Positions 3,470 through 61,484 of a stretch of 64,000 nucleotides of DNA are shown one piece after another. Position 1 is the first letter of the stretch; the number at the start of each line of letters is the position of its first letter. The stretch comes from Tridacna crocea (taxonomy: Eukaryota > Mollusca > Bivalvia > Cardiida > Cardiidae), in NCBI GenBank assembly GCA_943736015.1, contig OX031069.1:21147235-21211234 (forward strand), given 5' to 3'. Position numbers and translations under genes: made by a program. The notes beneath the pieces are model-generated. The model worked only from the letters and a program-made list of their open reading frames with translations. It searched no databases and was not told the DNA's origin.

Positions 3470-4940
3470 GACTGTTTTAAAGTTAAAGTTATAAACCATT
3501 GCCCACAATGAGGGCCATTCTTCAGTTACTTCCCTTGATTCTTGTCCAGTGCTACATTGTTCCTAATGAGAGGATTACTCGGATTTAATCCTTGATTTTC
3601 TTGCACTGAACAGCTATGTTCTTGAGATAATATTGCAAGTAAACATACTTAGATAATTTTACAAATCAATGTATCTGTAGTTCCTGATGAATAAGAACAG
3701 AAATTGAATTGAATTACATGACGGCCTTAAACAAACATATTATCTCATAGTTATATTTATCACAATATACCAAAGGGAACTAAGGATAAAAACAAAGAAA
3801 AACACGTAAAAAGGACCAATCTGTTATTTTAGATACCTTTAGTATTTATCTGGCAAGGGAGATAATTTAATTCCCAAAAATAATCCCCATTGAATATGAG
3901 GTTGAAAACATTCCTCTATTCAAAGAATTGAAAAAAGGTGTGTTTGGAATAAAATCATCCAAAAAAGGTAAAATAATTTCTATTTTTTACTTTTATCTAG
4001 CATCAAAAATGATACAACGACAGTTTCAATTTGGATACATTTTGAATTTATCTTTTAGGTACGTTTTGACTTTATTTTGGGGTGTGTTTCGACTTATGTT
4101 TTGGGTACGTTTTGGTTTGGGTACGTTTCCATCGCTAGTGAGTATGAGGCATTCTGTCCATCAGCTGCATGCCTTGAAACAGAAGTTACTTGTGTTTTCT
4201 CATACGAACATTATACTATAAAATCTGTATGGTGCACTGCAAGAAGTTTATATAAGTCCTCTTTCTCCACCCCCCCCCCCCTTTTTCCGAAAAAAATACG
4301 GAAGACTAAAAGGCTCCTGACAGCCAGCTGTATTTCTACAACGTTTAACTGTTCTTTTTTTTTCCCAAAATATAAAGAGAAACAGAGTCACCTTGATGTT
4401 CCTTTAACGTTGGCAAAAGAAGCATTAATTACATCTACTTAATAATCTTTGTAAATACTAACTTAATAATAATCTAGTGCAAGTCATGACAATCTATCGT
4501 TTATCATTATGTATTTTTATAGATGCTTATATGAATATTGTATATGGGTAGGTGTGAAAGAATTATTAGTGTTCTGCGATCTAATTCTCTATAGCAAGTA
4601 ATTCTACAGTCCCTCATAAAAGCCCACTGTCTCTGAAAATCCCAGATCCTGGTGGAAGAGTTAACTTGTCAAGCAAGCTGATAAGACAGTATAATTTATT
4701 GCCTCTAATTAGTTCGAATCTGACCAGGGACTATATTCTCTGATCCACAGTGTGAAACGTGTACTAAAACTGATTAGTCCTGAAGAGTCTTGCATTCATA
4801 GCATTTAAAATCTATGTCAAGTTCCAAGAAACAATTTTAAACACGCATCAATTTTCTTGGATGCCAGGCGCTGTGAACATGTAGAATGTAACAATTTTTG
4901 TGAATCATAAACCTTCAAAATTTTGATAATAGTCATTACG
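3470..4940. other. No supported feature; C-homopolymer at 4270-4281
   Basis: AT-rich. Open frames at 3928-4442 overlap in two frames and look like noise. Confidence 0.6.
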
Positions 4941-29953: not shown

Positions 29954-30182
29954 TTAACCCTTTCCCAAACAATCCCTGGTTTTTACGGGTCTGGAATAGT
30001 AGCCTTTTGAAAACATTGTGGGAAAAGGAGAAAATGCTGGTAACCAGCATTTTCTCCTTTTCCCACAATGTTTTCTACCCTATCATAGACAGAAATCATC
30101 TTTTCAGCAATAGTTGAATTGTCGTCTGCAAATGCTTTCAATTTCGTCCAGTCCAAAAGTTTGTCGTTTGGGAAAGGGTTAA
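29954..30182 (+). mobile_element. TH element, subfamily C
   Basis: ccctttcccaaac ends, L arm gggtctggaatagtagcc, perfect core, R arm preceded by catagacagaaatcatc. Confidence 0.87.
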
Positions 30183-32432: not shown

Positions 32433-33905
32433 TTTAACCCTTTACCACACAATCCCAACTTTTAACAACCTTAAGAAAGAAGCCTTGTGAAAACATTCTA
32501 CAACAAGAGCGGCAAATTGTCGCAAGATACGCCCATCTTACCCCAAGTTGTAAAGCTGGGGCATGCACCGGACAAAATTCAAATATGAAAAACAACAAAG
32601 GGCAATAACTCAAAAATTAAGCAAGCAAGAGTTGTGATTCCTGTGCACTATACCCCCCATTGATGAGATCTATCCACCCATGAAATTTCATAACCCTAGG
32701 TAGTATAGTTTTGGAGATATCTTCCGGACAAAAATTAAGTATGAAAAATTACAAAGGGCAATAACTCAAAAGTTAAGCAAGCAAGAGTTATGATTCCTGT
32801 GCACTCCACTCTCCCTCCATGAGATCTATCCACCCATGAAATTTCATAACCCTAGCTAGTATATTTTGGAGATATCAACCGGACAAAATTCAAGTATAAA
32901 AAACGACAAAGGGCAATAACTCAAAAATTAAGCAAGCAAGAGTTATGATTCTTGTGCACTGCACTCCCCACCATTGAGATCTATCCACCCATGAAATTTC
33001 ATATCCCTAGCTACTATAGTTTTGAAGATAAGCTCCGGACAAAATTCAAGTATGAAAAACAACAAAGGGCAATAACTCAAAATTTAAGTGAGCAAGAGTT
33101 ATGATTCCTGTGCACTGCACTCCCCCTCAATGAGATTTATACACCCATGAAATTTCATAACCCTAGCTAGTATAGTTTTGAAGATATGCTCCAGACAAAA
33201 TCCAAGTATGAAAAACAACAAAGGGCAATAACTCAAAAATTAAGCAAGCAAGAGTTATGATTCTTGTGCACTGCACTCCCCCTCAATGAGATCTATGCAC
33301 CCATGAAATTTCATAACCCTAGCTAGTATAGTTTTGGAGATATGCTCCGGACAAAGAACTGGACGCCGCCAAGTATGAAAAACAACAAAGGGCAATAACT
33401 CAAAAATTAAGCGAGCAAGAGTTATGATTCCTGTGCACTGCACTCCCCTTCAATAAGATCTATCCACCCATGAAATTTCATAACCCTAGCTAGTATAGTT
33501 TTGGAAATATGCTCCAGACAAAATCCAAGTATGAAAAACAACAAAGGGCAATAACTCAAAAATTAAGCGAGCAAGAGTTATGATTCCTGTGCACTGCACT
33601 CCCCCTCCATGAGATCTATCCACCCATGAAATTTCATAACCCTAGCTTGTATAGTTTTGGAGATATGCTCCGGACAAAGAACTGGACGCCGCCCGCCCAC
33701 CCGCCCGCCACGGGTGATCCCATAATACGTCCCGTCTTTGACGGGCGTATAAAAAGGGATAAAATGCTGGTATTCAGCATTTTCCCTTTTCCCACAATGT
33801 TTTCTAACCTTCCCATAACAAATTTAAACTTTTCAGTCACATTCCTTTTGTCCTCTACAACTGCTTTCAATTTGGAAGTCTAAACTTTTATTGTTTGGTA
33901 AAAAC
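32433..33905 (+). mobile_element. TH element split by a HINE-like tandem array
   Basis: The left part (TTAA, L arm, gaaaacatt) ends near 32499. The right part resumes near 33752 with aaatgctggtattcagc and continues through the R arm to about 33905. The intervening 1.25 kb is the 156-bp tandem element. Confidence 0.8.
32500..33751 (+). mobile_element. HINE/pearl-like element with seven ~156-bp tandem units
   Basis: Starts aacaagagcgg. Subterminal inverted repeats are atacgccc (32527-32534) and gggcgtat (33743-33750). The 3' end has the short hairpin cccgtctttgacggg (33731-33745). The core has seven units, with gggcaataact at about 32600, 32756, 32911, 33067, 33223, 33390 and 33546. This layout (tandem core, subterminal inverted repeats, 3' palindrome) is that of non-autonomous Helentron elements (HINEs) such as bivalve pearl. 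No coding capacity. Confidence 0.75.
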
Positions 33906-34237: not shown

Positions 34238-34335
34238 TTTTGTAGGCATTTCATACAAGTTAATGCGGGTGCATTTATAAATGTTTTTTCATTATCCGAT
34301 ATATATTTTGTGAAATATCGCTATGTGATAAAAAG

Positions 34336-34482
34336 AATCTGACATTCGTGGGCATTTGAGATAAAATTTTATTAAACTTGTCAAGGAAAATGTTATTAAG
34401 CTAGCCAAAGGCTCGCTTAATAACATTTCCCTAGACTTGTTTAATAAACTCTTATCTCAAAAGCCAACTCATGTCAGATCCT
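34336..34482. mobile_element. Foldback MITE, empty reference copy
   Basis: An imperfect palindrome from aatctgacattcgtgggc to gccaactcatgtcagatc, with an inner perfect arm aaatgttattaagc / gcttaataacattt. It contains an unoccupied TTAA at 34441-34444. Related copies are at 34640-35010 (occupied) and 35393-35500 (partial). Confidence 0.75.
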
Positions 34483-34504
34483 ATATATCTTAAACACATT
34501 TGTT

Positions 34505-34524
34505 TGACGTCACTTTTGACGTCA
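34505..34524. promoter_or_regulatory. Second paired CRE palindromes
   Basis: TGACGTCA at 34505-34512 and 34517-34524, with the same 12-bp spacing as at 34218, in the second copy of the repeat. Confidence 0.4.
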
Positions 34525-34639
34525 TTTTGTATGCATTTCATACCAGTAAGTGAGTCTTATTGAAAATATCTTGGGTGTATTTATGTATGTTTTTGCATCA
34601 TGTGATCATATTTTGTGAAATACCGTCATGTGATAAAAA

Positions 34640-35010
34640 GAGTCCGACATATGCGGGCGTTTGAGATAAGATTTTACAAAACTCATCAAGAAAAATGTTA
34701 TTAAACTCACCAAAGGCTTGCTTAATAACCTTTCCCTAGACTCGTTTAACCCTTTACCCAACAATCCCTGGTTTCTACAACCGAGAGGAAGAAGCCCTCT
34801 GAAAACATTGAGGGAAAGGGAGAAAATGCTGGTAACCAGCATTTTCTCCTTTTCCCTCAATGTTTTCTACTCTTCTAAAGTCAAGTTTCGATTTTTGAGT
34901 TACACTATTTTGCTGTCTGCAAGTGCTTTCAATTTGGACCAGTCTAAAATTTTGCCGTTTGGGAATGGGTTAATAAAATCCTATCTCAAAAGCCTACTCA
35001 TGCCAGATCC
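34640..35010. mobile_element. Foldback MITE, copy occupied by a TH element
   Basis: Matches 34336-34482 on both sides of the TH insertion: gagataagattttac... to cctagactcgtttaa, then ttaataaaatcctatctcaaaagcc. Confidence 0.75.
34746..34973 (+). mobile_element. TH element with proven TTAA duplication
   Basis: The element proper is 34750-34969, with TTAA on each side (34746-34749, 34970-34973). The core carries a paired change, attgaggg / ccctcaat, instead of attgtggg / cccacaat. The empty site is at 34441-34444. Confidence 0.9.
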
Positions 35011-35392
35011 TTTACCACATAACTTCCCTTGTTTCCAATGTAATGCAGCCATTGCAAATTTTCTTGTCTCACATACATGTGAGATAAGAAAATAGTGCTG
35101 TATTTGGTCAACACCATGTAACAATACACTGAATTTCTAAAATATTGCAGACCCGAGTGAAATGAACAGCCAAGATTTGTAATCATGATAAAGTTGTCAA
35201 TTTACCGTAATCACATTTAAATTCAAAACAAAATCAATATATGCAACTGTCTTTGGAACTACTTTTCCTTCGTAATATACCTTTCAAAGTAGTGACTAGG
35301 CTTCATGTAAATTTCATTACACATCATATATGTATGTCTGTGTTTTAACACATTATTGACTATAGTTCTTGTTGTACAGTTATGTGATAAGA

Positions 35393-38126: not shown

Positions 38127-38297
38127 AAATGAAGGCTATAAGAACAGATCATAGCGTTACCAATGCATGGCTGTAATGGCGAAAATTTTGAGTTAAAAAA
38201 GGAGCATGACTGTCAAAAAATATTCTGAAGGTTTTCCTTTCATCTTGCATGCATCCCCTTTCTATAGCTAACCAGCCTGAGCTTGAAGTAAGTATCT

Positions 38298-38522
38298 TCA
38301 ATCCTTTACCCCATGAGGCATTTCTATGGTATCTCTAATTGATCCTAAATAACAGCAAGGATGAAGCCGTTTTTATGTGCATATGACACCTTTTGATAGC
38401 ATAGAAAACATTGTGACAAAAGGTGAAATTGCTTGTGACAAGCAATTTCACCGTTTGCCACAATGTTTTCCAAAGGCTCCTACAAACATTGCGAAATGAG
38501 TATCTATGGAGTAAAGGGTTAA
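38298..38522 (-). mobile_element. TH element, subfamily D
   Basis: tcaatcctttaccccatgag start, outer arm with cataggagccgt-like sequence, core loop gcttgtgacaagc (self-paired variant) and end gtaaagggttaa. Shares TTAA with the next copy. Confidence 0.83.
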
Positions 38523-38918: not shown

Positions 38919-41348
38919 CTAGGAAGCTGGAAGTTGAGTATCTTTATTTCTTTTTGGTGGGGGAGGCGGCGGAGGTTTACGTCCTCCCATTTTTATCGAT
39001 TGTCCTTGACCTTTCATCCCCATATATTTGAGATTCTCATTATCATATCCTTCCAAAAGTTCTGGAGGCGGTGGGGGAAGGTCATTAATGTCTAAAATCC
39101 CCTCACAGTTGTCATAAATTGGATCTATATTTTGAATATCAGTCTCGTTTGGCACGTAAGCAATGTCAGCTGCATTAGTCATTGTTGATGATGATTGGGA
39201 TGATGACGATGTTGATGATAGTCGAGTGGACTCACTACGCCTTGGTGGCGGTGGTGGTAATATTTTTTTACTCTGTTGTGGTAACACTTTTGGTTTTTCT
39301 ATATTGTCTGACAGATTCACACTATTATTATTTTGACTAGATGAAAGCACATTTCCATTGACTCTTTGCTGAGGATCAGCTGGCTTTGGCAGTGTCTCTG
39401 GAGGACACTTTGTGTCATTTGATCTTTGAACAATACTCTGTGGTAAGGATTTATGCATATGCTTGTTTAATTCTGCCATATAGGGCAGAGGTGCATAGGT
39501 AGTGTCTTCATTACTATTGGCACAAGCACTTTGATTTTGACCATGTGTTTCATGAACATTTTGTGACCTTGGAGAAACCACAATGTCATTTGGATATGTT
39601 GAACTTTGTGCTTGAGACATGACCTGGTTGCCATTGACAACAATGCTACTGCCTGAAGGTCGTTTCTTATGGGTTTTGGTTCCTGTAGAACCAGAGTGGG
39701 GTGCTGGTGGAACAAGAGGAGGTGGAGCTGGGCCTGTGACAGGAATAACTGGAGGAGTAACAGGTTTGACCACTGAACTTCTGTTTCCAGAGAGCCTTGG
39801 GGACAGACATCCTAGTGGACTTTGGGGTGTTCCTGGAACTGATGCAGGGCTTGGGTAATCAAAAGGTGCTGCTGGAGCTGATTGGTGCATGACTGGTGGA
39901 GACTGACTCTGTGTTATAAAGTTCTGGGCAGACATGATCATTGTTGGGGTACTAGGTCCTGTCTGAACCCGACTTGGAATCTGTAAAGGAGGTGGAGGTG
40001 GAGATGCCAGCTTCGACCGTGGGGGTATTGGAGAAGAAAGAGGCTTTGGACCTGTTACTGGGGGCTGCTTAGTAGGTTGAGGCTGCTTGGCAGACTGAGC
40101 CTGCTTATTAGCTTCTTCCTCAACTGACTCTAAGCTTGATTTGGATGTATTAGAAGTATTTCTTTTGTGACCTTTTTCGATAGATCCAGTTGAACTGCCC
40201 GAGGACGGCCTGTTCTTTTTAACTCCAACAGGTTTCTGGGCTACTGGTGGTCCTTGCTTACTGACATGGCCTTGACCTGGGGGAAGCGATGGACATGGTA
40301 AATTTTGATTTTGCATCTGGGATGATTCAATGCTTTCGTACAATGGCATTGCTGAATGAGAATGATATTGCTCTGTGTAACCATAATTACCAGACGGGGA
40401 TGTTGGACTCAGAACATGACCTTGACCAGAGTCATTGGAATCCATAGATGAAATAGATGAACCGCGAGAATGTGTCTTTGGCTCTTTTTGTTGAAACCCA
40501 TACCCTTTTGACCCTTTTTGGGGCTGAGGGGACATAGGGAGTCTGGATGTGGGTGACATTGGTAAATGCTCATACTGAATTGTTTGTGACATTGACCTTG
40601 TATGGTCACGATATTGACCTTCACCTTTCTTATCCCCATTCATTTCACTATTGCACGCTGGAGCTGATTTTCTCCTTTCATAGATATCTTTTTGATTTCC
40701 TGTACTGACTGGCTTTACCTCATCTGGTCCTTCCAAAGAACCAATATTGATACCGTCTAGAGATGTCTGTACCATCTCAGATATCTGCCTTGTTGTTCCA
40801 GTAGTTACAGGTAATTTAGCTCTCATCTTGCTACTTCTATGTGATAGACTCATTCTGCCTTCTCCACTTGATGTGGAATCTTCACTAGAATCCGTTGAAG
40901 CGCTTGTTATTGAGTCACGATGACGTACAGGTATCAGTTCTTCACCTGTGTCATTAATCACACTATGGGTCGTACTAAACGAAACTCTTTTAACTGGCAC
41001 CTTATCCAGCTTGATTCCTTCTTGTACTTGTGTACTTGTCAGTGATGATTTTCTCTCGACTGGAAGGCGTCCATCCACATGATCCAACTCAGAATATGTA
41101 CTATCGTCAGATTCTTTACTTAGTAAAGGTTCTTTAAGTGGGACTGGATTTTTCACGACAACTATTGAGTGCCTGCAGCCGGGTTCTGGCATAGAGAGTC
41201 TACTGTCCGTCAGATCCCCTTGATTGAGTTCAGCAAGAGCTTCGGCAGCATCAGTTTGGTCGCCAAGACTAGCTCGATAATCCCGTGTGTCCCAAGTTAA
41301 AATTTCTCTCTGCAGGTTCTGGAAGTTAGCCAATAACTGTTTTCCAAA
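38919..41348 (-). CDS. RAPH1: Terminal coding exon of MRL-family (lamellipodin/RIAM/MIG-10-like) adaptor
   Basis: This exon encodes the end of the PH domain plus the whole proline-rich tail, 809 codons and a TAG stop. An AG acceptor lies at 41349-41350 and the exon opens in phase 0 with FGKQLLANFQN, continuing RIAK from the previous exon. No ATG begins it: the longest ORF reading starts at a TTG (41333), which is Leu here. Counted from the exon start: Ser-rich stretches near 146-162 and 291-304; PIPPRSK near 440; LASPPPPPLQIPSR near 447; AELNKHMHKSLPQSI near 625; ILPPPPPRRS near 696; LPPPPPELL near 757; PPPPPPPKRNKDTQL near 792. Vertebrate lamellipodin ends with the same succession, which supports orthology. 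(F/L)PPPP motifs bind Ena/VASP EVH1 domains and PxxPx(R/K) motifs bind SH3 domains such as Abi, so the expected role is coupling Ras/Rap and phosphoinositide signals to lamellipodial actin. Tyr sites such as DPIYDNC could be kinase targets (inference). No convincing poly(A) signal is seen in the first 180 bp past the stop, before a TH element begins. Confidence 0.9.
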   Translation of the reverse strand, partial: FGKQLLANFQNLQREILTWDTRDYRASLGDQTDAAEALAELNQGDLTDSRLSMPEPGCRHSIVVVKNPVPLKEPLLSKESDDSTYSELDHVDGRLPVERKSSLTSTQVQEGIKLDKVPVKRVSFSTTHSVINDTGEELIPVRHRDSITSASTDSSEDSTSSGEGRMSLSHRSSKMRAKLPVTTGTTRQISEMVQTSLDGINIGSLEGPDEVKPVSTGNQKDIYERRKSAPACNSEMNGDKKGEGQYRDHTRSMSQTIQYEHLPMSPTSRLPMSPQPQKGSKGYGFQQKEPKTHSRGSSISSMDSNDSGQGHVLSPTSPSGNYGYTEQYHSHSAMPLYESIESSQMQNQNLPCPSLPPGQGHVSKQGPPVAQKPVGVKKNRPSSGSSTGSIEKGHKRNTSNTSKSSLESVEEEANKQAQSAKQPQPTKQPPVTGPKPLSSPIPPRSKLASPPPPPLQIPSRVQTGPSTPTMIMSAQNFITQSQSPPVMHQSAPAAPFDYPSPASVPGTPQSPLGCLSPRLSGNRSSVVKPVTPPVIPVTGPAPPPLVPPAPHSGSTGTKTHKKRPSGSSIVVNGNQVMSQAQSSTYPNDIVVSPRSQNVHETHGQNQSACANSNEDTTYAPLPYMAELNKHMHKSLPQSIVQRSNDTKCPPETLPKPADPQQRVNGNVLSSSQNNNSVNLSDNIEKPKVLPQQSKKILPPPPPRRSESTRLSSTSSSSQSSSTMTNAADIAYVPNETDIQNIDPIYDNCEGILDINDLPPPPPELLEGYDNENLKYMGMKGQGQSIKMGGRKPPPPPPPKRNKDTQLPAS

Positions 41349-41396
41349 CTGAAAATAGAAAAAGAAAAACTGATGTGTAAATTAATGTCCAAACTT

Positions 41397-41633
41397 TCAA
41401 CCCTTTCACCCTTTACCCCATAAGGTATTTCTATGGTATCTCTAATTGACCCAAAATAACAGGAAGGATGAAGCCGTTTCTTATGCGTACATGACACCTT
41501 TCAATAGCATAGAAAACATTGTGACAAAAGGTGAAATTGCTCGTCACGAGCAATTTCACCTTTTGCCACAATGTTTTCCAAAGGCTCTTATGAGCAATGC
41601 GTAGAAACGAGTATCTATGGAGTAAAGGGTTAA
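41397..41633 (-). mobile_element. TH element, subfamily D, in MRL intron
   Basis: Core loop gctcgtcacgagc with perfect arms; starts about 50 bp upstream of the terminal-exon acceptor. Shares TTAA 41630-41633 with the next copy. Confidence 0.83.
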
Positions 41634-59966: not shown

Positions 59967-60025
59967 ATGGTAGGCCAAGACGAAGAAATTGTTAATTCAA
60001 GGCAATATTTGGTAGAATATTCTCA

Positions 60026-60259
60026 TTAACCCTTTACTCCATTACTCCTTTACTCATTTCTACGCATTTATTGTAGAAGCCTTTTGAAAACATTGTGACA
60101 AAAGGTGAAATTGCTCGTGACGAGCAATTTCACCTTTTATCACAATGTTTTCTATGCTATCAAAAGGTATCATATACACATAAGAAACAGCTTCATCCTT
60201 GCTGTTATTTAGGGTCAGTTTGAAATACCTTAGAAATGCCTTATGGGGTAAAGGGTTAA
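60026..60259 (+). mobile_element. TH element, subfamily D
   Basis: Complete. Core arms gaaaacattgtgacaaaagg and ccttttatcacaatg around ggtgaaattgctcgt/acgagcaatttcacc. Outer right arm as at 24960. Confidence 0.87.
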
Positions 60260-60428
60260 ATATTGGACTGTTTTATAAAGCGTTAAGATGCAGATGTATA
60301 CCCAAATATGCAGTGTTGCAATAGATCTCTTTTTGAAAAATTTAGAGGAACATAAAAGAAAAAAAAATCTCATTATCAGCAAGCTCTCCTTTTGTTTAAC
60401 TTCTTTTACATGATTCATAAATTACATG

Positions 60429-61255: not shown

Positions 61256-61484
61256 TTAACCCTTTCCCAAACAATCCCTGGTTTTCACAACCCTGAGATA
61301 GAAGCCTTTTGAAAACATTGAGGGAAAAGGAGAAAATGCTGGTCACCAGCATTTTCTCCTTTTCCAACAATGTTTTCTATCCTGCTGGAAACAAATTTCA
61401 GTTTTTGAGTTATGTTTATTCTGTCGTCTGCTAGTGCTTTCAGTTTGGACCAGTCTAACATTTTGTCGTTTGGTAAAGGGTTAA
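61256..61484 (+). mobile_element. TH element
   Basis: Between TTAAs; loop gctggtcaccagc; left core half attgaggg unpaired with caacaatg. Confidence 0.84.

Follow-up and report, generated by a model that had tools for sequence, protein, structure and literature searches.

A filled and an empty site in the window

The window is a 64,000-nucleotide stretch of contig C14 (G000:C14:21147235-21211234) from a genome of 1,048,827,098 bases in 31 contigs. It contains two plus-strand copies of a palindromic foldback repeat, 305 bp apart (34303-34489 and about 34608-35014). Copy 1 is uninterrupted and has a single TTAA at 34441-34444. Copy 2 is divided into a left portion (34608-34749) and a right portion (34974-35014) by a 220-bp element of a family here called TH, which lies on the plus strand at 34750-34969 and reads CCCTTTACCC...GGGAATGGG. 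One TTAA precedes the element (34746-34749) and another follows it (34970-34973).

The direct repeat formed by the two copies breaks off at the insertion, with 34303-34444 and 34608-34749 being 85% identical over 142 nt, and it is found again beyond the element, where 34970-35014 is 88.9% identical to 34441-34485. When the flanks of copy 2 are rejoined, without TH and without one of the two TTAAs, they align with copy 1 over 161 bp with 85.7% identity, no gaps and an intact TTAA. Copy 1, being palindromic, offers a second empty site, in reversed orientation, in its left arm, and the rejoined flanks match that site as well. This arrangement had been proposed in the initial annotation: the single TTAA of copy 1 agrees in coordinates and letters, the description of copy 2 as TTAA, 220-bp element and TTAA is right to the base, and the claim that removal of the element plus one TTAA restores copy 1 is borne out by the ungapped alignment, in which the two copies match on both sides of the insertion. 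The exact ends given for the element also hold, both in the window and in many other copies, although, as a refinement, its terminal repeats do not match perfectly, being CCCTTTACCC and CCCATTCCC in the window copy.

The window is rich in related sequence. By an HMM built from its 31 full-length TH copies, 32.6% of its length is TH sequence, and the copies include one at 61260-61480 (plus strand), which has TTAA on both sides and 83% identity to the copy in the foldback. A minisatellite-like array lies beside the foldback site, at 33000-33693, its repeat units being 156-167 or 323 bp long. On the minus strand, 38922-41381 is an open frame of 820 aa (stop to stop) that has no Pfam match at E 0.01.

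Insertion at TTAA across the genome

The family consensus is 221 bp long and has the ends CCCTTTACCA and CTCTTTACCA. Among 101 full-length copies from the window and 20 sampled loci, an exact TTAA is present on the left in 75, on the right in 82 and on both sides in 62, and is missing on one or both sides in the other 39. Because TTAA starts at 0.79% of positions (1,730 in the 220 kb sampled), its presence on both sides of 62 of the 101 copies is not due to chance.

A test for empty sites began with 95 full-length copies flanked left and right by a TTAA no more than 2 bp from the model ends. After removal of 37 that had further TH sequence at a distance of up to 25 bp, the flanks of the remaining 58 were rejoined and searched against 356 kb. 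Eight of the 58 have a spanning paralogous match (a maximum of three is shown per copy), and at least one shown match contains TTAA in six of these eight (W_34750, W_29958, L030_8761, L028_3286, L007_1151 and L004_1497). There is a single TTAA in at least one shown match for the first five, which include the foldback copy and the copy at 29958-30178 (plus strand), whose empty counterpart is at L027:4814-4882. Other shown matches read TAAC for W_29958, TAAA for L030_8761, TAAT or TTGA for L028_3286, and TCAA or TTCA for L007_1151. L004_1497, which occupies the same foldback site, has an extra TTAA. As for the remaining two copies, L007_49 sits inside a copy of the sister family TH2 (see below), and the TH2 copies shown read CTAA at that site, while the paralogous match of L030_6607 is ragged. 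A looser, earlier run gave spanning matches for 13 of 68 copies, but TH sequence in the flanks confounded most of it. Full-length TH copies typically lie exactly between two TTAAs, and a single TTAA is found at related empty sites; TH therefore inserts at TTAA with a 4-bp duplication.

The foldback itself is a dispersed palindromic family, with 3789 candidates genome-wide at a first look, and the other copies with top scores have identities of 92-97%. The TTAA is unbroken in all of the best-scored 40 genomic copies, window copy 1 included, in a scoring that favours unbroken copies. In eight further genomic copies the site reads TTAA in seven and TTCA in one, and the form of the rejoined site, GACTCGTTTAATAAAATC, is the most frequent (five of the eight). 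Patterns for this TTAA, allowing up to two mismatches, find 856 empty sites, 141 left filled junctions and 229 right filled junctions across the genome, from which the ratio of empty to filled can be read only roughly, the three patterns being unequally strict; the reversed-pattern controls gave 0 for each. Matching the listed junctions (100 on each side) with one another gave 28 same-strand pairs, the window's own included, and the insert is 205-229 bp in 27 of them and 449 bp in one. Twelve of the 141 left junctions match the pattern exactly. The letters were read at 84 of the left junctions, and 81 of these have an exact TTAA, although the pattern itself demands TTAA within two mismatches. 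A second, different TTAA of the foldback gives 236 left-junction matches (reversed control, 0). When the junction was moved 4 bp off the TTAA there were 35 matches, none exact and two with one mismatch (reversed control, 1); little weight can be placed on this control, as its TAAA tetramer differs from TTAA by a single base and no fewer than two of its matches pair with listed right junctions.

By hand count, TH2-like tips occur in 11 of the 84 left junctions read, and TH-like tips are also present in the filled list. In addition, a TH copy on C4 has the opposite orientation to the foldback from that of the window copy. It follows from the two kinds of tips and from the reversed copy that the insertions are independent, and the foldback site is thus one of many independent TTAA-directed insertions. 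A single foldback TTAA that has been filled or left empty hundreds of times is a natural record of piggyBac-type target choice.

One occupied site, L004:1497-1720, carries TH in reverse at the foldback TTAA used by the window copy, with the extra TTAA on the right, which may be the record of an earlier insertion or excision. We considered whether TH and foldback had been duplicated together at this locus, the fourth-listed TH match, and rejected the idea: TH is reversed there, and the flanks are 75-79% identical to those of the window, versus 93% for TH.

The abundance of TH was estimated from 22 loci of 10 kb on C1-C17, which were chosen by position rather than by a random generator, with C18 and the small contigs absent. 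TH covers 17.9% of these 220 kb (bootstrap 95% range, 14.0-21.9%; range among loci, 2.6-43.8%), a count that takes in some TH2 sequence, the TH HMM also matching TH2. As a control for false positives, the reversed sequence gave 0 nhmmer matches. Copies of at least 150 nt occur at 6.9 per 10 kb, which corresponds by sampling to about 720,000 per genome (558,000-892,000). As a rough figure, about one TTAA in ten is occupied by TH (151 copies versus 1,730 TTAAs in 220 kb). The duplication of TTAA is in itself ordinary transposon anatomy; what stands out is the scale, with one 221-bp family estimated from the sampled loci to make up about 18% of the 1.05-Gb genome, together with the constrained palindrome described below.

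Assignment to a transposon superfamily

The initial annotation had taken the duplicated TTAA as the mark of piggyBac-type transposition. The duplication stands, in the window and in many other copies; as a mark of piggyBac by itself it does not, because Kolobok elements also duplicate TTAA, with RR..YY ends (PMC9587614, excerpt), and the duplication is therefore common to both superfamilies and does not discriminate between them. The tips are more informative. Typical full-length copies start with CCC and end with G[AG]G. The YY..RR arrangement is found in 29 of the 31 window copies at each end, with a CC start in 25 of 31, which is not the 5'-RR..YY-3' arrangement of Kolobok. (Per-position conservation was not applied to the tips, the alignment having turned terminal mismatches into gaps.) A CC[C/T]T-type tip with short terminal inverted repeats, as in piggyBac, is present at the 5' end and in part at the 3' end, where three of the five subfamily consensuses have the tip CCCTTT and the largest subfamily has CTCTTT. 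The four piggyBac 5' motifs listed in PMC10813416 (excerpt) include CCCTT and CCCAT; TH starts of both kinds occur, while the CTCTT of the largest subfamily is absent from the four.

Potential sources of transposase are present in the genome. There are 118 matches to the piggyBac transposase domain PF13843, many of them without internal stops. Fourteen of the 118 places were examined and sorted into eight groups, and ends consisting of TTAA and CCC could be placed for five. These ends are CCCTTTATATAC, CCCATTTATGCC, CCCTTTCAG, CCCTTGTCATGC/CCCTAGTCATGC and CCCTCTAGA; none equals those of TH, and so no transposase-bearing element with the TH ends CCCTTTACCAC was found among the five groups, and none of these was retained as the TH partner. 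One of the elements, at L037:872-3629, has CCCTTTATATAC ends and an open frame of 624 aa, and appears to lie within a TH copy, the halves of which are at 780-856 and 3632-3757. Among other coding sequence in the sampled loci, an open frame of 576 aa on the minus strand of L012:8273-10000, cut by the end of the locus, has a DDE_1 transposase domain, and the domains seen include ankyrin, DCAF15 and THAP, which together with the chromosome-scale contigs point to an animal, perhaps, from its repeat motifs, a mollusc. The THAP open frame, in L022, was considered as a Kolobok transposase and set aside: its match is to a THAP domain of about 80 residues, beyond which the frame runs into TH sequence.

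Taken as a whole, TH is very probably a non-autonomous piggyBac-type DNA transposon (a MITE), an assignment that we make because of the TTAA, the tips and the presence of piggyBac transposases in the same genome. A piggyBac-superfamily transposase, supplied in trans, would excise the element at TTAA, and the excised element would be pasted into another TTAA, a cycle presumably repeated several hundred thousand times.

There are two points at which this account might be mistaken. One is the superfamily. Sola3, like Kolobok, duplicates TTAA, and TH might belong to one of these superfamilies and be moved by its transposase. The KolobokP lineage is rich in bivalves (PMC9587614, excerpt), and the piggyBac loci examined (14 of 118 PF13843 places) include no partner for TH. 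However, the RR..YY ends of Kolobok, and the AG tips of the Xenopus elements (PMC6004289, excerpt), are the opposite of the YY..RR tips of TH, which resemble those of the piggyBac elements with placed ends in this genome; we consider a different superfamily highly improbable. The other point is the history of copy 1, which could have been filled once and lost TH by precise excision, and so be a repaired rather than a virgin site. Excision by piggyBac is usually precise (PMC2872659, excerpt), and both histories leave the same sequence. For this reason the word "proves" in the initial annotation was slightly too strong, a paralogous empty site being what either a never-filled or a precisely excised site would give; its overall interpretation is otherwise supported. 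Excision from copy 1 is nevertheless unlikely, because the unfilled state is the commoner one (the 856 empty sites against 141 or 229 junctions, with the unequal strictness of the patterns in mind), and copy 1 is a typical example of it. The conclusion about TTAA is unchanged either way.

A conserved internal palindrome

The element contains a palindrome of 67 nt, at 34801-34867 in the window copy, which was identified as an inverted-repeat match and consists of two 33-nt arms, 97% complementary, with 1 nt between them. It is the best-conserved part of TH. In 142 near-full copies, the pairwise difference is 13.6% at the 66 arm sites and 29.4% elsewhere. Clustering on the non-arm sites gave five groups of 84, 9, 7, 6 and 6 copies (112 of the 142, smaller groups being dropped). 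Between any two of four of these five subfamily consensuses, 0 or 1 of the 66 arm sites differs, the one difference being uncompensated, while the non-arm parts differ by 10-25%; in the fifth (n=7), three arm pairs differ and all three differences are compensatory.

Pairing is maintained as well as sequence. In 208 copies, 138 cells hold compensated double changes, compared with a mean of 38 and a maximum of 49 in 30 shuffles, although some of these copies are probably TH2 and relatedness is counted along with events. In a set of 24 palindromes (21 distinct, picked among the better hairpin matches), double changes occur at eight pairs, and the covariation is 0.137 versus 0.040 in shuffled sequence, a value reached in none of 500 shuffles, and versus at most 0.032 when the pairing is slid. 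The number of further pair types in the same set is less striking, being reached by 17 of 500 shuffles.

The sister family TH2 provides a second view of the palindrome. It is represented by 16 near-full copies of 221 bp, of which the other 15 are 88.6-93.5% identical to the query copy; in the window, the TH2 search finds copies at 38297-38522 (plus strand) and 60025-60261 (minus strand), and a further copy, at 41404-41633 (plus strand), is colinear with TH when reversed. A one-strand alignment had suggested that TH2 shares just the palindrome and tips with TH. This was rejected, because reversed TH2 is colinear with TH, has the same length and carries the palindrome in the same register (52-118). 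The two families are 85% identical over the palindrome, 57% over the 51-bp spacer and 42% over the 3' part, the last value being barely above that of shuffled sequence. By hand count there are 10 differences in the palindrome, eight of which form four compensatory flips (65/105, 72/98, 77/93 and 82/88); of the remaining two, one is uncompensated and one is a loop base.

A related palindrome is found in one transposase-bearing element. The piggyBac element at C8:24819960-24823612, bounded on both sides by TTAA-CCCTCTAGA on our reading of the sequence, has a PF13843 match without a stop at 24821097-24822170 and subterminal inverted repeats that are 82% identical over 180 bp. The left repeat contains a TH-like palindrome and the right repeat the first half of one. 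No subterminal repeats like these were found in the other examined piggyBac groups; in L032 there are weak remnants of the palindrome to either side, and in L037, L039 and G the inverted matches overlap TH hits. A single palindrome in the C8 element by chance would be unsurprising, because remnants of TH abound and, of 358 palindrome places in the sequence sampled, 27 have no TH or TH2 neighbour. The C8 variant of the palindrome occurs at 44 places genome-wide with up to two mismatches (control, 0). One of these, C2:10453739, is about 0.5 kb before a PF13843 match (C2:10454288) and is the sole such case besides C8, where about 0.01 neighbours would be expected by a hand calculation (44 places versus about 90 transposase loci of 3 kb). 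The variant also clusters near contig starts (C1:17968-36588, C2:15581-16672, C3:43448-48399 and C8:8393-8940), where it looks as if it were part of a subtelomeric repeat, and it is therefore not confined to piggyBac. We consider the link between the TH palindrome and a transposase-bearing piggyBac element to be suggestive. In viral_contigs, the exact 31-nt core of the TH palindrome has 0 matches.

Within clusters, the mismatch between arms is near, and slightly below, twice the arm divergence (e.g. 0.088 versus 0.102), which indicates that the arms decay nearly independently after insertion, with correction being at most slight. In the largest cluster, divergence from the cluster's own consensus is 0.051 in the arms and 0.130 in the rest, which is not what simple neutral decay after insertion would give; finer subfamilies or alignment error are likely causes, although the explanation is partial. 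Our reading is that the constraint acts on those TH copies that multiply. The palindrome, near one end of the element, may be a cis-acting part needed for efficient movement. It might plausibly be a binding site for a transposase dimer, by analogy with the end palindromes of piggyBac and piggyBat, which are bound by the cysteine-rich domains of their transposases (PMC11707139, excerpt), and its length of 67 nt would also permit an extruded hairpin.

It is tentatively suggested that selection has kept the palindrome as a portable cis-module of a piggyBac lineage, a module that keeps its pairing through compensatory change, is better conserved than any other part in at least two MITE families and is present in the subterminal repeats of a transposase-bearing element. 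Hairpins promote template switching, and so the palindrome could instead be dispensable for movement and owe its conservation to correction of one arm by the other, to exchange between nested copies or to search bias. The choice of the 24 covariation sequences among better hairpin matches and the closeness of the arms to their own cluster consensus are both compatible with such an origin, and the same search bias has been named for the coral elements discussed below (PMC2872659, excerpt). Correction, however, would preserve pairing rather than identity, yet four of the five consensuses share the 66 arm bases to within one, and the mismatch of about twice the divergence limits any correction after insertion to a slight effect. 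We regard a dispensable palindrome as possible but doubtful. It is also conceivable that the hairpin acts as RNA, for instance as a source of small RNAs, and that TH was kept or spread for that reason; folding would be expected of an RNA that had this 33-bp stem and its compensatory changes, and the best Rfam matches in a lax search are microRNA hairpins. The best of these reaches 35.9 bits versus a cut-off of 80, as expected of any long hairpin, and at the cut-off no Rfam family is found in the whole window, so that a role as RNA seems quite unlikely. If the suggestion of a selected cis-module is true, the palindrome could have let one MITE family fill about one-tenth of the TTAAs and about one-sixth of a 1-Gb genome.

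Relation to known TTAA elements

No description of TH was found in the literature covered, which includes the available part of a study of bivalve transposons (PMC10294476) and lies largely outside subscription papers. Both piggyBac and piggyBat target TTAA. Like TH, they have palindromes near their ends, but these are 14-19 bp long (PMC11707139, excerpt), whereas that of TH is 67 nt and starts 52 bp from one end; TH, unlike them, is too short to encode a transposase. The T2-MITE of Xenopus, a Kolobok derivative, resembles TH in being a TTAA-target MITE family of ancient origin and recent activity, but it has a terminal AGGRR motif of the RR..YY class (PMC6004289, excerpt), as opposed to the YY..RR tips of TH.

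The nearest precedent for TH is provided by the CMITEs of Acropora corals. According to the available text (PMC2872659), CMITEs are small and TTAA-flanked, have mostly CCCTTT-type ends and are ascribed to piggyBac; their internal region, which has a conserved sequence of 75 bases, varies less between families than the terminal inverted repeats do, a logic that TH shares; and there are alleles with and without the element in which TTAA is duplicated, much like the empty and filled sites of TH. They differ from TH in size and number, being about 100 bp long with about 1,600 copies in A. millepora, compared with 221 bp and about 0.7 million copies by sampling. In that same text no hairpin, palindrome or stem-loop is mentioned, whereas TH has its 67-nt palindrome. 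TH thus repeats the CMITE pattern of a core conserved over the ends at far greater abundance, and adds evidence of pairing. The CMITE core has been suggested to act in transposition (PMC2872659, excerpt), and a constrained palindrome that changes mostly by compensation makes the question raised by CMITEs, of whether internal MITE sequences drive success, a testable one.
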